Shown here in pieces: positions 18,226 to 37,623 of a stretch of DNA of 41,504 nucleotides (the stretch's first letter is position 1; each line of letters starts with the position of its first letter). The translations under genes were made by a program, and so were the position numbers. This stretch comes from a virus: positions 1 to 41,504 of the IMG/VR virus record IMGVR_UViG_3300024182_000014; one strand, 5' to 3'. The notes beneath the pieces are model-generated. The model saw nothing but the letters and a program-made list of their open reading frames with translations. It did not search any database and was not told where the DNA came from.

Positions 18226-20532
18226 ATGCCCGGGTACGTCAGCCTTACCAACCGCGCGACGGGCCAGGAGGAGCTCGTCGATGCGGACCAGGCGCCGGCC
18301 GCGCTCGCCTCTGGCAAGTACCTCGATCCCGGCGCGGTGGCGGTCGAGCGCAACGGGATGGCGCGCTACACGACGCCCGAGGTCGCGGCGCGCGAGCAGC
18401 TGATCGCGCCGACGATCGACCCCGCGCAGGCGGCGCTCCAGCAGGGCCACGACATTCGCGAGCGCGCGAACACCGGCGCGCTACCGACCGCGGAGGCGCT
18501 GCTCGGCGGCGGCGTGAGCGGCCTGTCGTTCGGCGTGCTCAACCCGTTCGGCGAGCAGCAGGAATTCAACCCGATCGCCTCGGGCGTGGGACAGGTCGCC
18601 GGCGCGCTGGCCCCGGCGTTCGTCGGTGATGTCGGCGGGCTGTTCGGCGCTGGCCGCGAGGCGGTAGTGGCCGACGATGCGCTCACGGCCGAGCGCGCCG
18701 CCGCGGGGCTGCCGTCCAAGGCGCTGTACGGCGGCGAGGCGGCCGCCGGCACGGTCGAGGGCGACGTGGTGCGCGCCGGCAAGGCGATCACGGGCGCCGC
18801 GGAGCGCCCGCCCGCCGTGCATGTTCCCACCCCGACCGCGGCGGGGCCAGCGCTCGAGGATCTCGACCTCGCCGGCCTCAAGGCCGCGCGCACGTCCGAG
18901 CTCGACGCGATCAAGGCGGCGCAGGCGCCCGAGCGCAAGGCCTTTGTCGACGAGCTCGTCGCGTCGCGCCAGGCGAACCTCGATGAGAAAACGTGGCTCG
19001 CCACGCAGGGCGGCAAGACGCGCGAGGTGCGCGCGATCGGGCTCGATACGCTGCAGGCCGACCGGCGGATCGACAAGCTGCTCAAGGTCCAGGCTGACCT
19101 CGCCGAGGACCCGGCGCGCGCGGCATCGGCGCTCCGCCAACAGGAGCAGGCGCTGACGAAGCTGCAGGCCTGGGGCGAGCGGGCGATCGCGGACTGGCAA
19201 GAAGAGTTCACGAACGCGCCCGCCAAGATCATCGAGGAGATGAAGTTGCCCGAGGCGAAGCAACCGCCGGACGTAAGGGGCTATCGCTACGACGCGCTTT
19301 CGCAGCGCGGCATCGATCAGGCCATCACCAACATCATGGAGGCGCGCTACGGCCGCACCACCATCGATGCGCGGCTACCGCTGCTCGACCAGCTGCCGAC
19401 GAACCTCCGCGTGCTGCAAGGCGTGCCCGCCCAGCTCGAGCGGAACCGTGCGCTGCAGGACACGCTCGCGCGGCTGGTGGCCGAGCCGACCTCCACGCGG
19501 CTGGAGGAGATCGATTCGATGCTCGCCGCGCGCGCGGAACCGCATGACAACGCGATCGGCAAGGCGATCCACGCCTTCGCGCCCTTCCTCGGCCCGGCCG
19601 GCGCCGTCGCGGAGAAAGCCTATAAGGGGATCAGCAAGCTCGCCTCGGTGAGCGCGAAGGCCGTTTCTAAAGCCGCGAGTTCCTTCATCGAGGGCGCCGT
19701 GGCGGCCGCGCCGAAGGTCGCGCCGACGCTCGGCGTGCTCGGCACGCGGACCCTAGCCGGCGTGGCGTTCGCGGCGCCAGCATCGGCGCTCGCCGCCGCA
19801 GCATCCTCGCCGCCGCCCAGCAGCAAGAAGGCCGCGCTCGCGCCGGCGACGCCCGCCAAGTCGGCCGACCTCGAGGCGCTGTACCAGCAGCGCACCGCGG
19901 AGATTCGCTCACAGACGATGTACGGCCCGGGCGGGGTGCCCGTCATGCGGCCCGAGGCACGCGAGATGATGGCTGCGCAGCTCGCCGCGATCCGGGCGGC
20001 GTCGCCGATGCTCGCCGACCGCGTCGAGACCGTCGGGGCGCGGCGCATGGAGTACCTCGCCGGCATCATGCCCAAGCTGCCCGACTACGGCGTGATGCAG
20101 CTCGGCCCCGATCGCCGGCGCGTGCCGGAGCTGCAGATGCGCTCGTTCGCGCGCTCGGTCGCGGCCATCGAGGACCCGCACGCCGCGCTCGAGCGCGTCG
20201 CCAGCGGCAACTTCGTGCCCGAGGATGCCAACGCGCTGCGCGCGGTATACCCCGAGCTGCTCGCCGACTTCACGCAGCAGGTGGTCGCGAAGCTGCCGAC
20301 GCTGCAGCGGACCCTGCCGTACAAGCGGCGCCTGGCGCTGTCGATGCTGACCGGCGTGCCGGTGGACGTCGCGATGACGCCGGCCGTGCTGCGCGAGATC
20401 CAGTCGATGTACGCGGCCGAGCCGGGCACCGAAGGCGGCACGCAGGCACCGACCGCGCAACCGCAGTTCGGATCCGTGAAGCGCAGTGACCCCGGAACGC
20501 CGGCGCAGCGCCGGGAAGGACTGACCACATGA
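18226..20532 (+). CDS. internal virion (DNA ejection) protein candidate
   Basis: 768 aa starting directly after the stop of the previous gene. Two Gly/Ala-rich hydrophobic regions are visible: about residues 88-145 (LLGGGVSGLSFGVL, then APAFVGDVGGLFGAG) and about 500-530 (TRTLAGVAFAAPASALAAAA). Between them is a long charged coiled-coil-like region. Such amphipathic helices can insert into membranes. Together with the 831-aa gene it probably forms the ejection apparatus; this rests on composition and position. Confidence 0.62.
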   Translation: MPGYVSLTNRATGQEELVDADQAPAALASGKYLDPGAVAVERNGMARYTTPEVAAREQLIAPTIDPAQAALQQGHDIRERANTGALPTAEALLGGGVSGLSFGVLNPFGEQQEFNPIASGVGQVAGALAPAFVGDVGGLFGAGREAVVADDALTAERAAAGLPSKALYGGEAAAGTVEGDVVRAGKAITGAAERPPAVHVPTPTAAGPALEDLDLAGLKAARTSELDAIKAAQAPERKAFVDELVASRQANLDEKTWLATQGGKTREVRAIGLDTLQADRRIDKLLKVQADLAEDPARAASALRQQEQALTKLQAWGERAIADWQEEFTNAPAKIIEEMKLPEAKQPPDVRGYRYDALSQRGIDQAITNIMEARYGRTTIDARLPLLDQLPTNLRVLQGVPAQLERNRALQDTLARLVAEPTSTRLEEIDSMLAARAEPHDNAIGKAIHAFAPFLGPAGAVAEKAYKGISKLASVSAKAVSKAASSFIEGAVAAAPKVAPTLGVLGTRTLAGVAFAAPASALAAAASSPPPSSKKAALAPATPAKSADLEALYQQRTAEIRSQTMYGPGGVPVMRPEAREMMAAQLAAIRAASPMLADRVETVGARRMEYLAGIMPKLPDYGVMQLGPDRRRVPELQMRSFARSVAAIEDPHAALERVASGNFVPEDANALRAVYPELLADFTQQVVAKLPTLQRTLPYKRRLALSMLTGVPVDVAMTPAVLREIQSMYAAEPGTEGGTQAPTAQPQFGSVKRSDPGTPAQRREGLTT

Positions 20533-32884: not shown

Positions 32885-33178
32885 TCAATCCGGATCGCAG
32901 AAGCAGACGTGCTCGAGGTGCGGGTAGGTGATGTAGTACGCGGCGAACTCGACGTGCGAGCCCGAGGCGCACGCGTCGCCGTCGCCGCACGGAACGCGAG
33001 AGCACGCGGTTGCCGGCTCCGGCTGATCGCAGAAGCACGTGCTGTCCGCGCACGGCGCCCAGCGGTCGGCCTCACCGCTCGCCGCCCATCGACAGCCGAG
33101 CTCGGCGCACGTCGGCAGCGGCGAGCTTGCCGCGCACCCCGCCCCGATCGCCACCAGCAACACCAGCATCACGCGCAT
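32885..33178 (-). CDS. Cys-rich lipoprotein-like protein (moron candidate)
   Basis: 97 aa. Hydrophobic start (MRVMLVLLVAIGAGC) with Cys15 at a lipobox-like place, then ten further Cys in short spacing (CAELGC, CADSTCFC, CSRVPCGDGDAC, CFC), resembling disulfide-knotted secreted domains. It faces left, tandem with the preceding lipoprotein-like gene and against the flanking rightward operon. Host range or superinfection immunity functions are plausible; none is shown. Confidence 0.6.
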   Translation of the reverse strand: MRVMLVLLVAIGAGCAASSPLPTCAELGCRWAASGEADRWAPCADSTCFCDQPEPATACSRVPCGDGDACASGSHVEFAAYYITYPHLEHVCFCDPD

Positions 33179-33249
33179 GCCGCCACGGTAGATCGCGGCG
33201 CGCCGTCACGCAATCCGCCGCAGATCGCGGCAGCCAGGAGCCACTGATC
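33179..33249. other. divergent intergenic region
   Basis: 71 bases between the leftward Cys-rich gene and the rightward early genes. A purine-rich AGGAG (33236-33240) serves the downstream ATG. It should hold promoters for both directions if the moron genes are independent, but no clear -10/-35 pair can be read. Confidence 0.3.
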
Positions 33250-33978
33250 ATGGAGACCTCGATCCCCAAGCTCGTTCGCGAACTTCCATCGAATCTAGTC
33301 CTCAAACACGGAAGCCACAGCTCGCCAGACAAGGGCATGTGCGCAATGGAAGCCGTCGCGTGGGTGGCCGGCGAGCCGCACAGCGATCACCCCAAGTGCG
33401 CGTCGCCGGTCCTTGGCGCGATCATGCGCGGGCTCAACGATCGCTTCACCGACGACGAGCGCCAGCTGCTCGCGCCGCTGATCCCGCGGCTGGTCGGCAC
33501 GCGTGCACCCGAGCTCGAGAGCAAGCGCGCGTATGCGATGGTTGACGCGGCGATCCGCGAGCTCGCGCCGATGGGCCTCGACGCGGTGAAGTGGACCGAC
33601 CTCGCGGATCGGATGCGCGCGATCGCGCCGATCGTCGACCTCGCGAGCGCGAATGCGGCGCTGGCGATCTGCCGCGAGATCAGATCGGAGGCTTGGGATA
33701 CGAGGAAAAAGTCCGCCGCCGCCTACGCCGCCGCCGACGCCGCCGCCTACGCCGCCGACGCCGCCGACGCCTACGCCGCCGCCTACGCCTACGCCGACGC
33801 CGACGCCGCCGCCGACGCCGCCGACGCCGCCGCCTACGCCGCCGACGCCGCCGCCGCCTACGCCGCCGACGCCTATAAAAGTCCGGAAGAACGCGCGCGC
33901 GTCCGCTCGCTCACCCGCCGCCCGATCGTCGAGGCCACCGTGCGCGCCTACGAGCGCGTCATCGCGATCGCCGCCTGA
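33250..33978 (+). CDS. early protein with Ala/Tyr/Asp repeat tract
   Basis: 242 aa from ATG 33250 with AGGAG upstream. Residues 30-70 (KGMCAMEAVAWVAGEPHSDH, then PKCASPVLGAI) belong to a phage protein family I recall from diverse temperate phages, function unknown. Residues 156-208 consist only of Ala, Tyr and Asp, written solely as GCC, TAC and GAC, giving a tandem low-complexity tract (33715-33873). A basic tail follows. The tract may form a helix or fibre, and can change length by slippage. Confidence 0.72.
   Translation: METSIPKLVRELPSNLVLKHGSHSSPDKGMCAMEAVAWVAGEPHSDHPKCASPVLGAIMRGLNDRFTDDERQLLAPLIPRLVGTRAPELESKRAYAMVDAAIRELAPMGLDAVKWTDLADRMRAIAPIVDLASANAALAICREIRSEAWDTRKKSAAAYAAADAAAYAADAADAYAAAYAYADADAAADAADAAAYAADAAAAYAADAYKSPEERARVRSLTRRPIVEATVRAYERVIAIAA
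33715..33873 (+). repeat. trinucleotide tract of GCC, TAC and GAC codons
   Basis: 159 bases made of 53 codons, all GCC, GAC or TAC, inside the gene above. Neighbouring codons use the same residues more variably, so this looks like recent local expansion. No complete unit repeats throughout, but six- and nine-base units (such as GCCGAC and GCCGCCTAC) recur. Confidence 0.8.
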
Positions 33979-33980
33979 CC

Positions 33981-34748
33981 ATGAGCGCCGACCTCCAGCG
34001 CCGCGGGCTCGCGTCCGACCTGACGCGCAGGCTCCAGCTCGCGAGCCACGACGAACTGCGCCTCGCCGACGCCGCGCTGACCGCGATCGAGCAGGCCCGC
34101 GGCCTCCAGTGGGAGCGCCGGATCGCGACCGGGCCCGGCGACGTCGACCGGCTGTTCCACATCGCGACGCCCAGGCTCTCGCGCGGCATCGTCGAGACCA
34201 GGTGCAGGGGCTCGTGGCCGTTTGCCGATCCGGTCGAGCGCCAGTCCAACGTGCCGGTGGTCGAGCGCTGCCTCGAGTGCTGGCGCGCCGTCGCCGACCA
34301 CCCGATCAGCGTCGGACTACTCGCCGTCGTCGAGGATCTGTGCGCGCAGGACGTCGAGCGCGCGGAGCTGCGCGAGGCTGCGCGGCGCGAGATGTTTGTC
34401 GGTGCCGAGCGGGGTGGCGCTGACCAGTCGCCGCAGCGCCCCGCGCTACGCGATGACGTCCGCTCCAGCCACTTCGCGCACTGCACTTTCATCGTCGATC
34501 AGGCGCAGCGGGAGAGCGGCTTCTGCGCGCGGGATGGTTTCACGATGGAGGCGCACTGTGAGCAGTGCTACCAGGACGCGCGCCATCCCGCTGACGACCT
34601 CGCGATCGCCGTCGAGCCCGCGCGCGCCGCCGAGTGGCAGGGTGACCTGACGCGCGCGAGCAACGTGCCCGCGCAGCTCGCGCTCGCGGACGTTGACCAG
34701 CGCGAGCCGCACGAGATCGACATTGTAGAGCTCGGAGGCAAGGGCTGA
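33981..34748 (+). CDS. hypothetical protein with Cys pairs
   Basis: 255 aa, three bases after the previous gene. Helical N-terminus; the middle includes RCLECWRAVADHP, and a later block has HFAHCTFIVDQ and CEQCYQDARHP. These scattered Cys pairs and His could bind zinc. No known fold can be named. It ends in an overlap with the XF1762-family gene (TGATG). Confidence 0.66.
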   Translation: MSADLQRRGLASDLTRRLQLASHDELRLADAALTAIEQARGLQWERRIATGPGDVDRLFHIATPRLSRGIVETRCRGSWPFADPVERQSNVPVVERCLECWRAVADHPISVGLLAVVEDLCAQDVERAELREAARREMFVGAERGGADQSPQRPALRDDVRSSHFAHCTFIVDQAQRESGFCARDGFTMEAHCEQCYQDARHPADDLAIAVEPARAAEWQGDLTRASNVPAQLALADVDQREPHEIDIVELGGKG

Positions 34749-35230
34749 TGCGGCTCGAGCTCGTACCCCTCACGTTGACCGAGGCGCACGCCTTCGTCGA
34801 AGGGCATCACCGCCACCACGACCGCGACGAGAGCGGCCGGTTCGCGATCGGCGCGGCGCGGGTTCGCGTCGTGGTCGCGGTCGCCATCGTCGGTCGCGCC
34901 AAGGCGCGCCTACTCGACGCCGACGACTACACGGCCGAGGTCACGCGGCTGTGCTCGATCGAGACCGGCCGGTTTGCTGACAGCGCCGGCAAGCTGCACG
35001 CGTCATGCGCGTGCTCGATGCTGTACGCGGCGTGCTGGCGCGCATGGCGCGCGATGGGGGGGCGCCGGCTGGTCACGTATATCCTCCCCGAGGAGGGCGG
35101 AATCTCGCTCGAGGCCGCGGGATGGACGTGCGTTGGCGAGGCCGGCGGCGGCTCGTGGGATCGCAAGGATCGCCCTCGCGTCGACGAACACCCGACGCAG
35201 CTGAAGATCCGATGGGAGCGCGCCGCGTGA
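34748..35230 (+). CDS. XF1762-family protein
   Basis: 160 aa. It matches the XF1762 family, common in phages: a start with TEAHAFVEGHHRHH, then AVAIVGRAKARLLD, EVTRLCSIETG, CSMLYAACWRAWRAMGGRR, VTYILPEEGGISLEAAGW and GGGSWDRKDRPRVDEHP. The fold is thought to be GNAT-like, but the substrate is unknown. The start ATG is set by the TGATG junction with the previous gene. In phages it usually sits with replication or DNA-modification genes, as here. Confidence 0.85.
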   Translation: MRLELVPLTLTEAHAFVEGHHRHHDRDESGRFAIGAARVRVVVAVAIVGRAKARLLDADDYTAEVTRLCSIETGRFADSAGKLHASCACSMLYAACWRAWRAMGGRRLVTYILPEEGGISLEAAGWTCVGEAGGGSWDRKDRPRVDEHPTQLKIRWERAA

Positions 35231-35615: not shown

Positions 35616-36268
35616 TGGCGCCCGTGAAGCACACCGAGGCCGACCTCGCGGCGGTCGTGGTCGCGTGGCTGCAGGACAGCGGGGCGGCGGTCTATCAGGA
35701 GGTCGAGGTCGCCGGCGGCGTCGCCGACATCGTGGCGCGCGTGGGGCCCGAGCTCTGGATCATCGAGACAAAGCTCAGCCTATCGCTCGCGCTTCTGGTC
35801 CAAGCGATGGGGCGACGACGCCACGCACACCGCGCCTACTGCGCCGTGCCATACACGCGTACGCTGCGCGACTTCGCCAGCGTGTGTCGCGAGGTCGGCG
35901 TGGGGCTGCTCGAGGTGAGCGCTGGCGACGAGCGTGATTGTCCGCGGGTCAAGGAGGCGATGCCGGCGCCGCGGTGGAATACCCGCCCGGTCGCGCTCGC
36001 GACGAAGCTCCGGCCTGAGCATCAGACGCATGCCGCGGCCGGGACCAACGGCGGGCGCTGGACACCATTCCGTGACACCTGCGAGCAGCTGCGCGCGATC
36101 GTCGAGCGGAATCCCGGCGTGCCACTCGGCGACGCGGTATCGAGCATCCGAGACCACTACAGCAGCAAGGCCGCGGCGCGGTCGAGCCTGGCAGCGTGGG
36201 CCGCGGCCGGCAGGGTGCCGGGCGTCATGATCGTCGAGGGAGCGCTCTGGCCCGCGGAGCTCGACTGA
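35615..36268 (+). CDS. PD-(D/E)XK nuclease-like protein
   Basis: 217 aa. The N-terminal 100 residues carry the nuclease order: a helix with ADLAAVVVAWLQ, then YQEVEVAGGVADIVARVG with the metal-binding Asp, and ELWIIETKLSLSLALLVQAM with the ETK (E-x-K) signature. The family includes restriction and repair nucleases. Residues 115-217 are a helical extension with WTPFRDTCEQLRAIVERNP and no clear function. Position before the replication initiator suggests a DNA-processing role. Confidence 0.62.
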   Translation: MAPVKHTEADLAAVVVAWLQDSGAAVYQEVEVAGGVADIVARVGPELWIIETKLSLSLALLVQAMGRRRHAHRAYCAVPYTRTLRDFASVCREVGVGLLEVSAGDERDCPRVKEAMPAPRWNTRPVALATKLRPEHQTHAAAGTNGGRWTPFRDTCEQLRAIVERNPGVPLGDAVSSIRDHYSSKAAARSSLAAWAAAGRVPGVMIVEGALWPAELD

Positions 36269-37623
36269 TGGCCCGCATGTCGATCGACGACAAGTTCCTC
36301 CGCGACCCGCGGATCACGCAGCTCGCGCTCGACCTCCGCATGTCGCGGTGGGAGGCGATGGGCCGGCTGATGGCGGTGTTCGCGGTCTGCTACGACCTGG
36401 AGCGCGACACCGTATCTGCCGCGCTGATCGACCACGCGGCGGACCGGCCCGGGTTCGCGGATGCGATGTTCGCCGTGGACCTGGCCGTGAACACGCGGCG
36501 CGGACTACGGATCCGTGGCGCCGGAAAGCGGATCGAGTACCTGGGCGCAAAGAGCGAGGCTGGGCGCGCAGGCGGACTCAAGAGCGCGGAATCACGGCGC
36601 CGAGCGGCGAAGCAGCGGCGAAGCAGCGGCGAAGCAGCGGCGAACGACGCGATCCGAGACGTGGATCCGAACCGCGAAGCAGACCGCCCACGAGACGCGA
36701 AGCACGGCGACATTGAGGGGCTAACTGCCAATGATCCACAGGGGAATTCGGCGAAGCAAAAAACGAACGAACGCGAAGCACGGCCGAACCCTCCGGATCC
36801 GGTTCCGGATCCTCCTCCGGATCCGGTTCCGGAAGATCAGAGCTCTCCCTCCGCGCGCGCGATCCCATCGAGCCCAGTACCTGCGCCACCGGCGCCCACT
36901 GTCCCCGCAGTGTCCCCGCCGGCGCCAGCACGCGAGGACATCGCGAGGACACAGCCGGCGATCCCCGGCCCGCTGGTCATGACCCCAGGCGAGATCCGCG
37001 CCGAGCGCGCGCGGGTCGCGCCGGCGGCCGTCGCCCCGCCGGGTGAGAGCGCCTGGCACAGGCGCCAGCGGTGGTGGGGCGCGATGCTCGAGGCCGATCG
37101 CCGGATCCGCGAGGCCGGCATCGAGCCGAATGCAGGCGCGCTCGCGAAGTCCCCCGCCGGCGTGAACGAGCAGAACATGAACCGCTGCGAGCGGCAGCTG
37201 ATCGACGGGGGGCTCTCGCCTGCCGAGGTTGACGCGAAGATGCTGCACATCGTGCTCGTCGCCGAGGCCGAGGCGATTCGCGAGCGGCATCGTCGGTGGT
37301 TCAAGCCGGCGATGATCTGGGATCCCGAGCGCGCAGCGCGCGCGGTCGACACCTCGCTGGCCGAGGCATCCGCGAAGCCCGAGGCGAAGCGCACGTCGGC
37401 GAAGTCCGACCGCTACGCGAAGCCTGAGCCGTACGTTGCACCCAAGCCCGAGTTCTCCGAGCCACCCGTCGTCGTGTCGCGAGACGAGCTCGCCGACGTC
37501 GCCGCGATGGCGGCGCACGCCCGCGCGGCACTGTTCGGCGCGACCGCCGACGCACGCGCGGGACCGACGAGCGCGCCACTGACCACCGACGAGCAACCCC
37601 AACCAGCAAAGGCAGCGACATGA
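36268..37623 (+). CDS. replication initiator / replisome organiser
   Basis: 451 aa. The N-terminal 115 residues resemble winged-helix phage initiators: MSIDDKFLRDPRITQLAL, a long helix with MSRWEAMGRLMAVFA, then GAGKRIEYLGAKSEAGRAGG and a basic end KSAESRRRA. Residues 115-250 are low complexity with Pro/Asp runs; this segment also contains the iteron-like DNA repeats. The C-terminus (ESAWHRRQRWWGAM, VDAKMLHIVLV) is helical and may contact helicase. As in lambda O, an origin lies inside the gene. No helicase loader is recognised nearby. Confidence 0.65.
   Translation: MARMSIDDKFLRDPRITQLALDLRMSRWEAMGRLMAVFAVCYDLERDTVSAALIDHAADRPGFADAMFAVDLAVNTRRGLRIRGAGKRIEYLGAKSEAGRAGGLKSAESRRRAAKQRRSSGEAAANDAIRDVDPNREADRPRDAKHGDIEGLTANDPQGNSAKQKTNEREARPNPPDPVPDPPPDPVPEDQSSPSARAIPSSPVPAPPAPTVPAVSPPAPAREDIARTQPAIPGPLVMTPGEIRAERARVAPAAVAPPGESAWHRRQRWWGAMLEADRRIREAGIEPNAGALAKSPAGVNEQNMNRCERQLIDGGLSPAEVDAKMLHIVLVAEAEAIRERHRRWFKPAMIWDPERAARAVDTSLAEASAKPEAKRTSAKSDRYAKPEPYVAPKPEFSEPPVVVSRDELADVAAMAAHARAALFGATADARAGPTSAPLTTDEQPQPAKAAT
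36607..36780 (+). repeat. iteron-like repeats, candidate replication origin
   Basis: Seven copies of GCGAAGCA start at 36607, 36618, 36629, 36674, 36697, 36751 and 36773; a degenerate eighth starts at 36640. Spacings are 11, 11, 45, 23, 54 and 22, close to multiples of the DNA helix turn. They fall in different reading frames, so the protein does not explain them. TGATCCACA (36732-36740) resembles a DnaA box (TTATCCACA). The stretch between is less GC-rich. Confidence 0.68.
36792..36833 (+). repeat. CCGGATCC/GGTTCCGG repeats in the initiator gene
   Basis: Just downstream of the iterons the sequence repeats CCGGATCCGGTTCCGGATC-type units twice in about 42 bases; each contains palindromic GGATCC and TTCCGGAT-like parts. 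In protein it is a Pro/Asp run. It could be part of the origin or a low-complexity expansion. Confidence 0.5.

Follow-up and report, generated by a model that had tools for sequence, protein, structure and literature searches.

Short direct repeats at an 11-bp pitch inside a predicted phage replication initiator gene: a candidate intragenic origin

Introduction

A virus record of 41,504 bp (hereafter the window, meaning the whole stretch of DNA analysed) holds seven exact copies of the 8-base word GCGAAGCA inside a single open reading frame. The question raised by this locus is what such an array does within coding DNA, and in particular whether it is the origin from which the phage replicates. 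An earlier note, made from the letters alone, had described the site as helically phased iterons hidden in an initiator gene and as a candidate new phage origin family. Here, we use computation to establish where the repeats lie and in what register, that they are kept as DNA, and how they co-vary with the N-terminal domain in relatives. We consider it likely that the gene at 36268–37623 is a phage replication initiator with a phage origin of the iteron type in its own coding sequence.

Results

The repeat array

The array occupies positions 36607–36780, with every copy on the plus strand and spacings of 11, 11, 45, 23, 54 and 22 bp. The gene and the putative iterons are as follows:

36268..37623, plus strand: predicted initiator gene encoding P0001 (451 aa); an open frame with a match to phrog_9474; in its relatives L003 and L007 the gene adjoins a DnaB gene
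36607..36614, plus strand: iteron 1, exact copy of GCGAAGCA, codon phase 0
36618..36625, plus strand: iteron 2, exact copy of GCGAAGCA, codon phase 2
36629..36636, plus strand: iteron 3, exact copy of GCGAAGCA, codon phase 1
36640..36647, plus strand: degenerate copy, GCGAACGA, read from the sequence; 11 bp past iteron 3, keeping the 11-bp register
36674..36681, plus strand: iteron 4, exact copy of GCGAAGCA, codon phase 1
36697..36704, plus strand: iteron 5, exact copy of GCGAAGCA, codon phase 0
36751..36758, plus strand: iteron 6, exact copy of GCGAAGCA, codon phase 0
36773..36780, plus strand: iteron 7, exact copy of GCGAAGCA, codon phase 1

Outside the array, a single further GCGAAGCA was found in the 41.5-kb window, at 19255. 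The total of eight compares with 2.85 expected, and none of 100 dinucleotide shuffles reached it (maximum, seven). We then used a codon-preserving shuffle, in which synonymous codons are exchanged within the gene and both the protein and its codon usage stay unchanged. For 8-mers present in at least two frames within 180 bp, the gene gave seven copies and 2000 such shuffles gave four at most; GCGAAGCA itself averaged 1.7 copies under this shuffle and never exceeded five (n = 5000). A two-strand version of the test, run twice on the same gene, was matched by 0/1000 and 0/500 shuffles. When it was applied with 8-mers to 24 window frames, which include the array gene and some of which overlap one another, the other 23 were not comparable, each being reached by at least 9/100 shuffles. 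The GCC-rich frame 33010–33978 stood above its shuffles with 7-mers (0/100) and not with 8-mers (9/100). Seven exact copies with these spacings in several codon frames had been reported by the earlier note, and this was confirmed: all three frames are used, and 0/2000 codon-preserving shuffles reached seven. The maintenance of the GCGAAGCA repeats as DNA, and not as protein, is supported.

Simple sequence of other kinds was seen in the window as well. Frame 33010–33978 contains 11 CGCCGCC copies in 180 bp, a GCC-rich low-complexity stretch, and a second GCGAAG cluster at 37372–37425 keeps to one codon frame, reads Ala-Lys and resembles codon usage.

The encoded protein

The iterons begin at residue 114 of the 451-aa protein, after a predicted winged-helix N-terminal domain. 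Two domains were delimited in the gene:

36268..36600, plus strand: N-terminal domain, predicted winged-helix DNA-binding (AlphaFold2 model, weak structure matches and hhalign)
37036..37428, plus strand: C-terminal domain, with 64% identity to that of L003

The whole of P0001 matched two PHROG families, both annotated as 'replication initiation protein' (phrog_9474, E = 7e-5; phrog_2509, E = 0.024). The N-terminal domain alone matched each of them with E = 0.0012, and no Pfam family was matched by P0001. The evidence for a replication initiator gene at 36268–37623 is weak but consistent. An AlphaFold2 model of the first 111 residues, built together with 10 relatives, has a pLDDT of 79 and shows helices followed by a beta hairpin. 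In VIA-align, winged-helix entries (rows at Z 4–5), including DnaD, a 'DNA binding protein' and an 'initiator', were recovered at Z 4.0–4.5, within a mixed list headed by the unrelated NLRP9 and Avs4 (Z 6.0) and in a range, below Z 8, that may mean a common arrangement alone. Profile alignment of the window N-terminal domain to 10 family members with hhalign returned a probability of 96.5% (E = 8e-10); judged by its sequence, the domain belongs to the N-terminal family of L003, L007, L010 and L015–L024 as a diverged member. The C-terminal domain is presumed to contact the replisome.

Other structural and profile searches were set aside. Foldseek with the N-terminal model gave a best E of 0.16 (OhrR, then MarR; none below 0.001), the full-length AlphaFold model (mean pLDDT 45) had no meaningful Foldseek match, and the N-terminal profile retrieved just two TPR/kinesin rows from PDB sequences (E = 0.003 and 0.008). 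Relatives of P0001 were found neither in phage records (tblastn) nor in plasmids or one-per-species genomes (two-sequence alignment), and its N-terminal part alone, searched up to E = 10, gave a single weak phage match (E = 2). The DnaB_C profile had no match in the window, a record that may be a fragment.

Repeats and domains in relatives

The relatives, all from viral contigs, combine domains and repeats in different ways. The C-terminal domain of L003 is that of the window, at 64% identity over 131 aa, whereas the N-terminal domains of the two have diverged (33% over 69 aa); the L003 linker holds eight CCAGCA, on both strands, in the same place as the window array (0/1000 shuffles). The N-terminal domains of L007 and L003 are 68% identical and CCAGC repeats occur in both, the L007 copies being spaced 12, 11, 11, 11 and 10 bp. 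The C-terminal domain of L007 is unrelated to that of L003; it resembles DnaT (E = 7e-4, short of the Pfam cut-off) and matches phrog_1032, 'replication initiation protein' (E = 3e-11). A DnaB gene lies directly downstream of the initiator in both contigs. Since L003 keeps the window C-terminal domain with another repeat, and L007 shares with L003 both the N-terminal domain and the repeats, the type of repeat follows the N-terminal domain, as would be expected of a binding site for that domain.

Exact-repeat clusters were assessed in 10 N-terminal relatives. Three were clear (L003, L007 and L023) and one was borderline (L015). L023 has eleven [AG]ACCCT, nine of them consecutive at spacings of 12, 12, 11, 11, 11, 11, 12 and 11 bp (0/300 shuffles). 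On whether relatives that keep the protein also keep the repeats, a point raised by the earlier note, the outcome was divided: L003, the sole C-terminal relative found, keeps a cluster of another sequence, but in 6/10 N-terminal relatives (L010, L017, L018, L019, L022 and L024) the cluster was not significant. In four of the six, one or more 6-mers recur at 11 bp, the exceptions being L022 and L024. TGCC clusters in L010, L015, L017, L018 and L019 were reached by 26 to 110/1000 shuffles and, being this weak, are not claimed as iterons. L018 ends in Phg_2220_C, a part that recurs in phage genes with a replication initiation protein annotation. Among helicase neighbours with another N-terminal type, L012 has seven CGTGAC (0/500 shuffles) and L009 nothing. 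Searches for further relatives gave none for L003 or L023 in phage records and none for L007 in genomes.

Register of the array and pitch across initiator genes

The spacing had been described in the earlier note as close to whole helical turns. For a period of 11.0 bp, R was 0.92, a value that 0.1% of random placements equalled or bettered (1% with the tandem triplet taken as a single copy); for 10.5 bp, R was 0.22, equalled or bettered by 79%. The array is thus in phase at 11.0 bp and not at 10.5 bp, and the pairwise 'whole turns' were recast as an 11-bp register.

The pitch was then assessed by a motif-free test, which counts the 6-mers repeated at each offset in nt 260–620 of initiator genes and compares them with synonymous shuffles. 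Set A comprised 12 viral-contig genes, selected by protein similarity (L003, L007, L010, L015, L017, L018, L019, L022, L023 and L024) or, for L009 and L012 (with L010), by helicase similarity, with the near-duplicates L016 and L020 excluded. Set B comprised 18 annotated phage genes among the tblastn matches of L031, L032 and L036, which had themselves been found through repeats; the 18 were picked from 90 matches listed (84, 20 and 137 records matched) for host variety and with their linkers unseen. Nine further matches from similarity listings served as a hold-out. L031, L032, L036 and the window were excluded from the offset counts, and two of the genes counted, L057 and L059, are so short that they scarcely reach the linker.

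Among offsets 7 to 39, 11 was the top offset in set A and set B alike. The number of 6-mers repeated at this offset was 12 vs 2.8 expected in set A (n = 12) and 17 vs 3.1 expected in set B (n = 18), with 0/100 shuffles reaching either value, and it was 1 vs 1.4 expected in 17 control frames (12 from the window and five dnaB). Counted by gene, 9/12 in set A (2.3 expected) and 12/18 in set B (2.7 expected) had an 11-bp repeat of a 6-mer (0/200 shuffles). A weaker excess at 11 was present in nt 1–260 of the initiator genes (9 vs 2.7). In the nine hold-out genes, offset 22 was on top (10 vs 1.5 expected); offset 11 was raised (6 vs 2.0; 2/300 shuffles) and lay outside the top six, so that the prediction made beforehand, with 11 at or near the top, came true in part.

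For all 39 initiator genes, there were 35 repeats vs 7.5 expected at 11 bp and 24 vs 5.4 at 22 bp, and 18 neighbouring genes used as controls gave 2 vs 1.9 expected at both offsets. Some of the 39 are near-duplicates or close relatives of others (L062 of L061, L067 of L066 and L064 of L063). Without L062, L064, L067 and L019, the remaining 35 genes gave 32 vs 7.0 at 11 bp and 19 vs 4.8 at 22 bp, with bands of excess at 10–12, 22–25 and 33–36 and smaller excesses at 18 and 46. As neither 11 nor 22 is a multiple of 3, protein repeats do not explain the excess at these offsets; that at 12, 18, 24 and 36 may come partly from codon-phase simple repeats.

Exact-repeat clusters, called clear when at most 2/200 shuffles reached them for some word length out of three tried, were found in 6/18 annotated genes (L046, L048, L049, L050, L054 and L055), of which L048, L049, L050 and L054 adjoin helicase or loader genes. 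A predicted array of five GTTGAA is present in the temperate Sinorhizobium phage phiLM21. In the open-licence literature, we found no description of phage initiator genes with a pitch of 11 bp. The initiators of a Sinorhizobium phage (L050) and a Methylophilaceae phage (L069) have nearly the same 11-bp unit, TTCAACGG(A/G)CG.

GCGAAGCA arrays in other viruses

Three GCGAAGCA at 10–12 bp were detected in 14 viral contigs. In four of these, representing three distinct genes, the array lies in the linker of an initiator-like gene: L031 and L040 (same printed protein), L032 and L036. The N-terminal parts differ, with DUF1376 in L031/L040, Lin1244_N in L032, and no Pfam match in L036; among the phage matches of L036 are initiators annotated as RepA-like. 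The GCGAAGCA spacings in L032 are 11, 11, 23 and 11. The other 10 contigs were made up of five with 12-bp codon repeats in open frames (L027, L029, L030, L033 and L035), three with simple arrays of 10 to 15 bp (L028, L034 and L039) and two with copies outside frames of more than 120 codons (L037 and L038). L034 and L039, which have the same printed flanks, carry GCGAAGCAAC arrays at 10 bp with a further copy 72 bp on.

Exact GCGAAGCA was absent from 18/18 annotated phage genes reached through L031, L032 and L036, and the repeat DNA of L032 had no match in phage records in a search that filters simple repeats. The peptides AKQ, RSK and REA may be common in the linkers of phage initiators. The recurrence of GCGAAGCA across families could be due to convergence, given the number of viral contigs, and for that reason no common recognition is claimed.

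DNA features beside the repeats

Next to or among the iterons lie the following features:

36706..36780, no strand: local A+T peak, candidate melting region; 46.7% over 75 bp vs a window mean of 30.2%
36732..36740, plus strand: TGATCCACA, DnaA-box-like, one mismatch from TTATCCACA
36790..36833, no strand: three CCGGATCC/GGTTCCGG units at 12-bp spacing, with strong self-complementarity, encoding PDPVPDP / PDPVPDPPPDPVP
36831..36867, no strand: element GGAAGATC..TCTCCCTCC..GCGCGATCC, common to the window, L003 and L010

At 19th of 8286 sliding positions, with 18 above it, the A+T peak is modest. The consensus of the DnaA box is TTATCCACA, and TGATCCACA is the sole match to it in the window at one mismatch or fewer. 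The DnaA-box-like sequence pointed out earlier among the repeats is thus present, at 36732, but it is not conserved: boxes at this threshold occur in just 2/35 linkers of other initiators.

In the window, L003 (gene nt 509) and L010 (gene nt 453) alike, the element GGAAGA..TCTCCCTCC.G.GCGCGATCC lies past the repeats and ahead of the part that encodes the C-terminal domain, and the codon phase of TCTCCCTCC is different in each (0, 1 and 2, respectively). Across the viral collection, from which the window's own record may have been excluded, the 20-base pattern of the element had exact matches in two contigs alone, L003's and L010's. A pyrimidine tract 3' of the repeats went beyond shuffles (0–4/200) in L003, L010, L015, L016, L018, L020, L022 and L024, was weaker in L017, L019 and L023 (reached by 26–32/200) and was within shuffles in L007 (105/200) and the window (175/200); for the window it is given no weight here. 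GC skew across the window has no clear turn at the repeat site.

Purine-rich microsatellites (GGAGA and GAAGA units) in the linkers of L009 and L012, at gene nt 419–463 of both, were beyond synonymous shuffles (0/200 and 1/200), and a purine-rich tract at nt 426 of lambda O was within its shuffles (45/200). The initiator gene is flanked by genes for a Mom-like DNA modification protein (phrog_1384; 34748–35230) and a Dam-type methyltransferase (PF05869; 38460–39377). An AAA-type ATPase (PF13479; phrog_1366, unknown function) is encoded on the minus strand at 27976–28923.

Comparison with known systems

According to PMC6022878, ori lambda sits within gene O. In our two-strand shuffle test, lambda O passes (0/100 with 7-mers, 1/100 with 8-mers) and lambda P fails. 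Lambda O is like P0001 in having iterons in the coding DNA downstream of a roughly 115-residue N-terminal part; the annotated lambda iterons start at about residue 117, close to residue 114 in the window, and in position the gene-inside-origin plan that had been proposed by comparison with lambda O is supported. The two differ in detail, as the four iterons of lambda are 18 bp long with start-to-start distances of 20, 24 and 23 bp, whereas the window has 8-bp sites at 11 bp. The view that the initiator is not a recognisable O homologue was also upheld: lambda O matches PF04492 (Phage_rep_O) and P0001 no Pfam family, and homology between the P0001 N-terminal alignment and lambda O was not detected (hhalign, 0.1%).

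SPP1 oriL is described as direct repeats within initiator gene 38 together with an AT-rich unwinding element (PMC6316719). As described there, it is like the window in plan, with repeats inside the initiator gene; SPP1 differs in having a second origin, oriR. For P1, the account in PMC9948254 has oriL postulated inside repL, with function reduced by synonymous changes; the part of repL demonstrated to be important there is an AT-rich region and not iterons. The authors of a study of RepA-type mycobacteriophages favour an origin just upstream of or within repA, in a lambda-like manner, and report that they saw no motif recur in the replication region of these phages (PMC7157519). In prophiT36-2a (L055), annotated as RepA-like, we counted six GGGACA in the gene (0/200 shuffles); the mycobacteriophage RepA-like initiators differ from P0001, which had no tblastn match in phage records. 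The DUF1376 (L031) and Lin1244_N (L032) initiators are like the window in having GCGAAGCA arrays at 11–12 bp in their linkers and differ from it in belonging to other Pfam N-terminal families.

Discussion

The repeats might serve as operator sites, with the initiator autoregulating by binding inside its own gene and the origin lying elsewhere, and intragenic repeat binding would look identical for an operator or an origin. Seven sites in mid-gene, in the same place as the annotated iterons of lambda, nevertheless argue against autoregulation, as do the clear clusters in initiators that adjoin helicase or loader genes (L048, L049, L050 and L054), and we regard operator sites as unlikely. An origin in protein low complexity appears less probable again. 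On that account, slippage and codon bias would have made the repeats in an Ala/Lys-rich basic linker, encoded by a genome that is rich in GC and favours a small set of codons; GCGAAG does recur in frame as Ala-Lys at 37372–37425, and the triplet at 36607–36640 is a perfect 11-bp tandem within reach of slippage. The copies, however, occur in all three frames, above synonymous shuffles, and the top offset of sets A and B is not a multiple of 3, which leaves low complexity a very improbable source of the array.

We give the least credence to sites for some other DNA-binding protein, for example a partition or nucleoid protein. Triple GCGAAGCA arrays do lie outside initiator genes in 10/14 viral contigs, and in L038 irregular copies at 11- and 12-bp spacings have no frame of more than 120 codons across them. 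Against such a protein, five of those 10 are codon repeats, three are simple arrays and two lie outside frames of more than 120 codons, and the repeats co-vary with the N-terminal domain of the initiator.

Returning to an iteron-type origin within the initiator gene, we infer initiator binding, melting, helicase recruitment and origin activity, which would proceed as follows. The N-terminal winged-helix domain, as modelled, would bind the GCGAAGCA iterons in the linker-coding DNA, and several initiator molecules would line up at an 11-bp pitch. This row would strain and open the adjoining A+T-richer DNA, at about 36700–36780, after which the C-terminal domain would recruit a DnaB-type helicase, either the phage's or the host's. 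By analogy, the site is best read as a plan like that of lambda and SPP1, with an initiator from a separate family and a pitch of 11 bp. To call it a candidate new phage origin family, as the earlier note did, overstates the case for the window phage and is too strong, since the plan is published for lambda and SPP1 and 6-mer repeats at 11 and 22 bp recur in several initiator types.

A broader proposal, which we hold tentatively and rate somewhat below an even chance, is that a single hidden origin code is common to phage initiators of unrelated families. It would consist of short sites in linker DNA, spaced at 11 bp and out of codon phase, whose sequence is free to change with the N-terminal domain. 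The difference between 11 and 10.5 bp would then reflect a row of bound initiators that holds the DNA slightly underwound and stores the strain for opening. To our knowledge, many phage genomes, metagenomic ones above all, are without a known origin. If the 11-bp rule is true, both the origin and the binding site of the initiator would be readable from the initiator gene alone in several families, and swaps like those among L003, L007 and the window would be natural experiments on how N-terminal residues correspond to the site.
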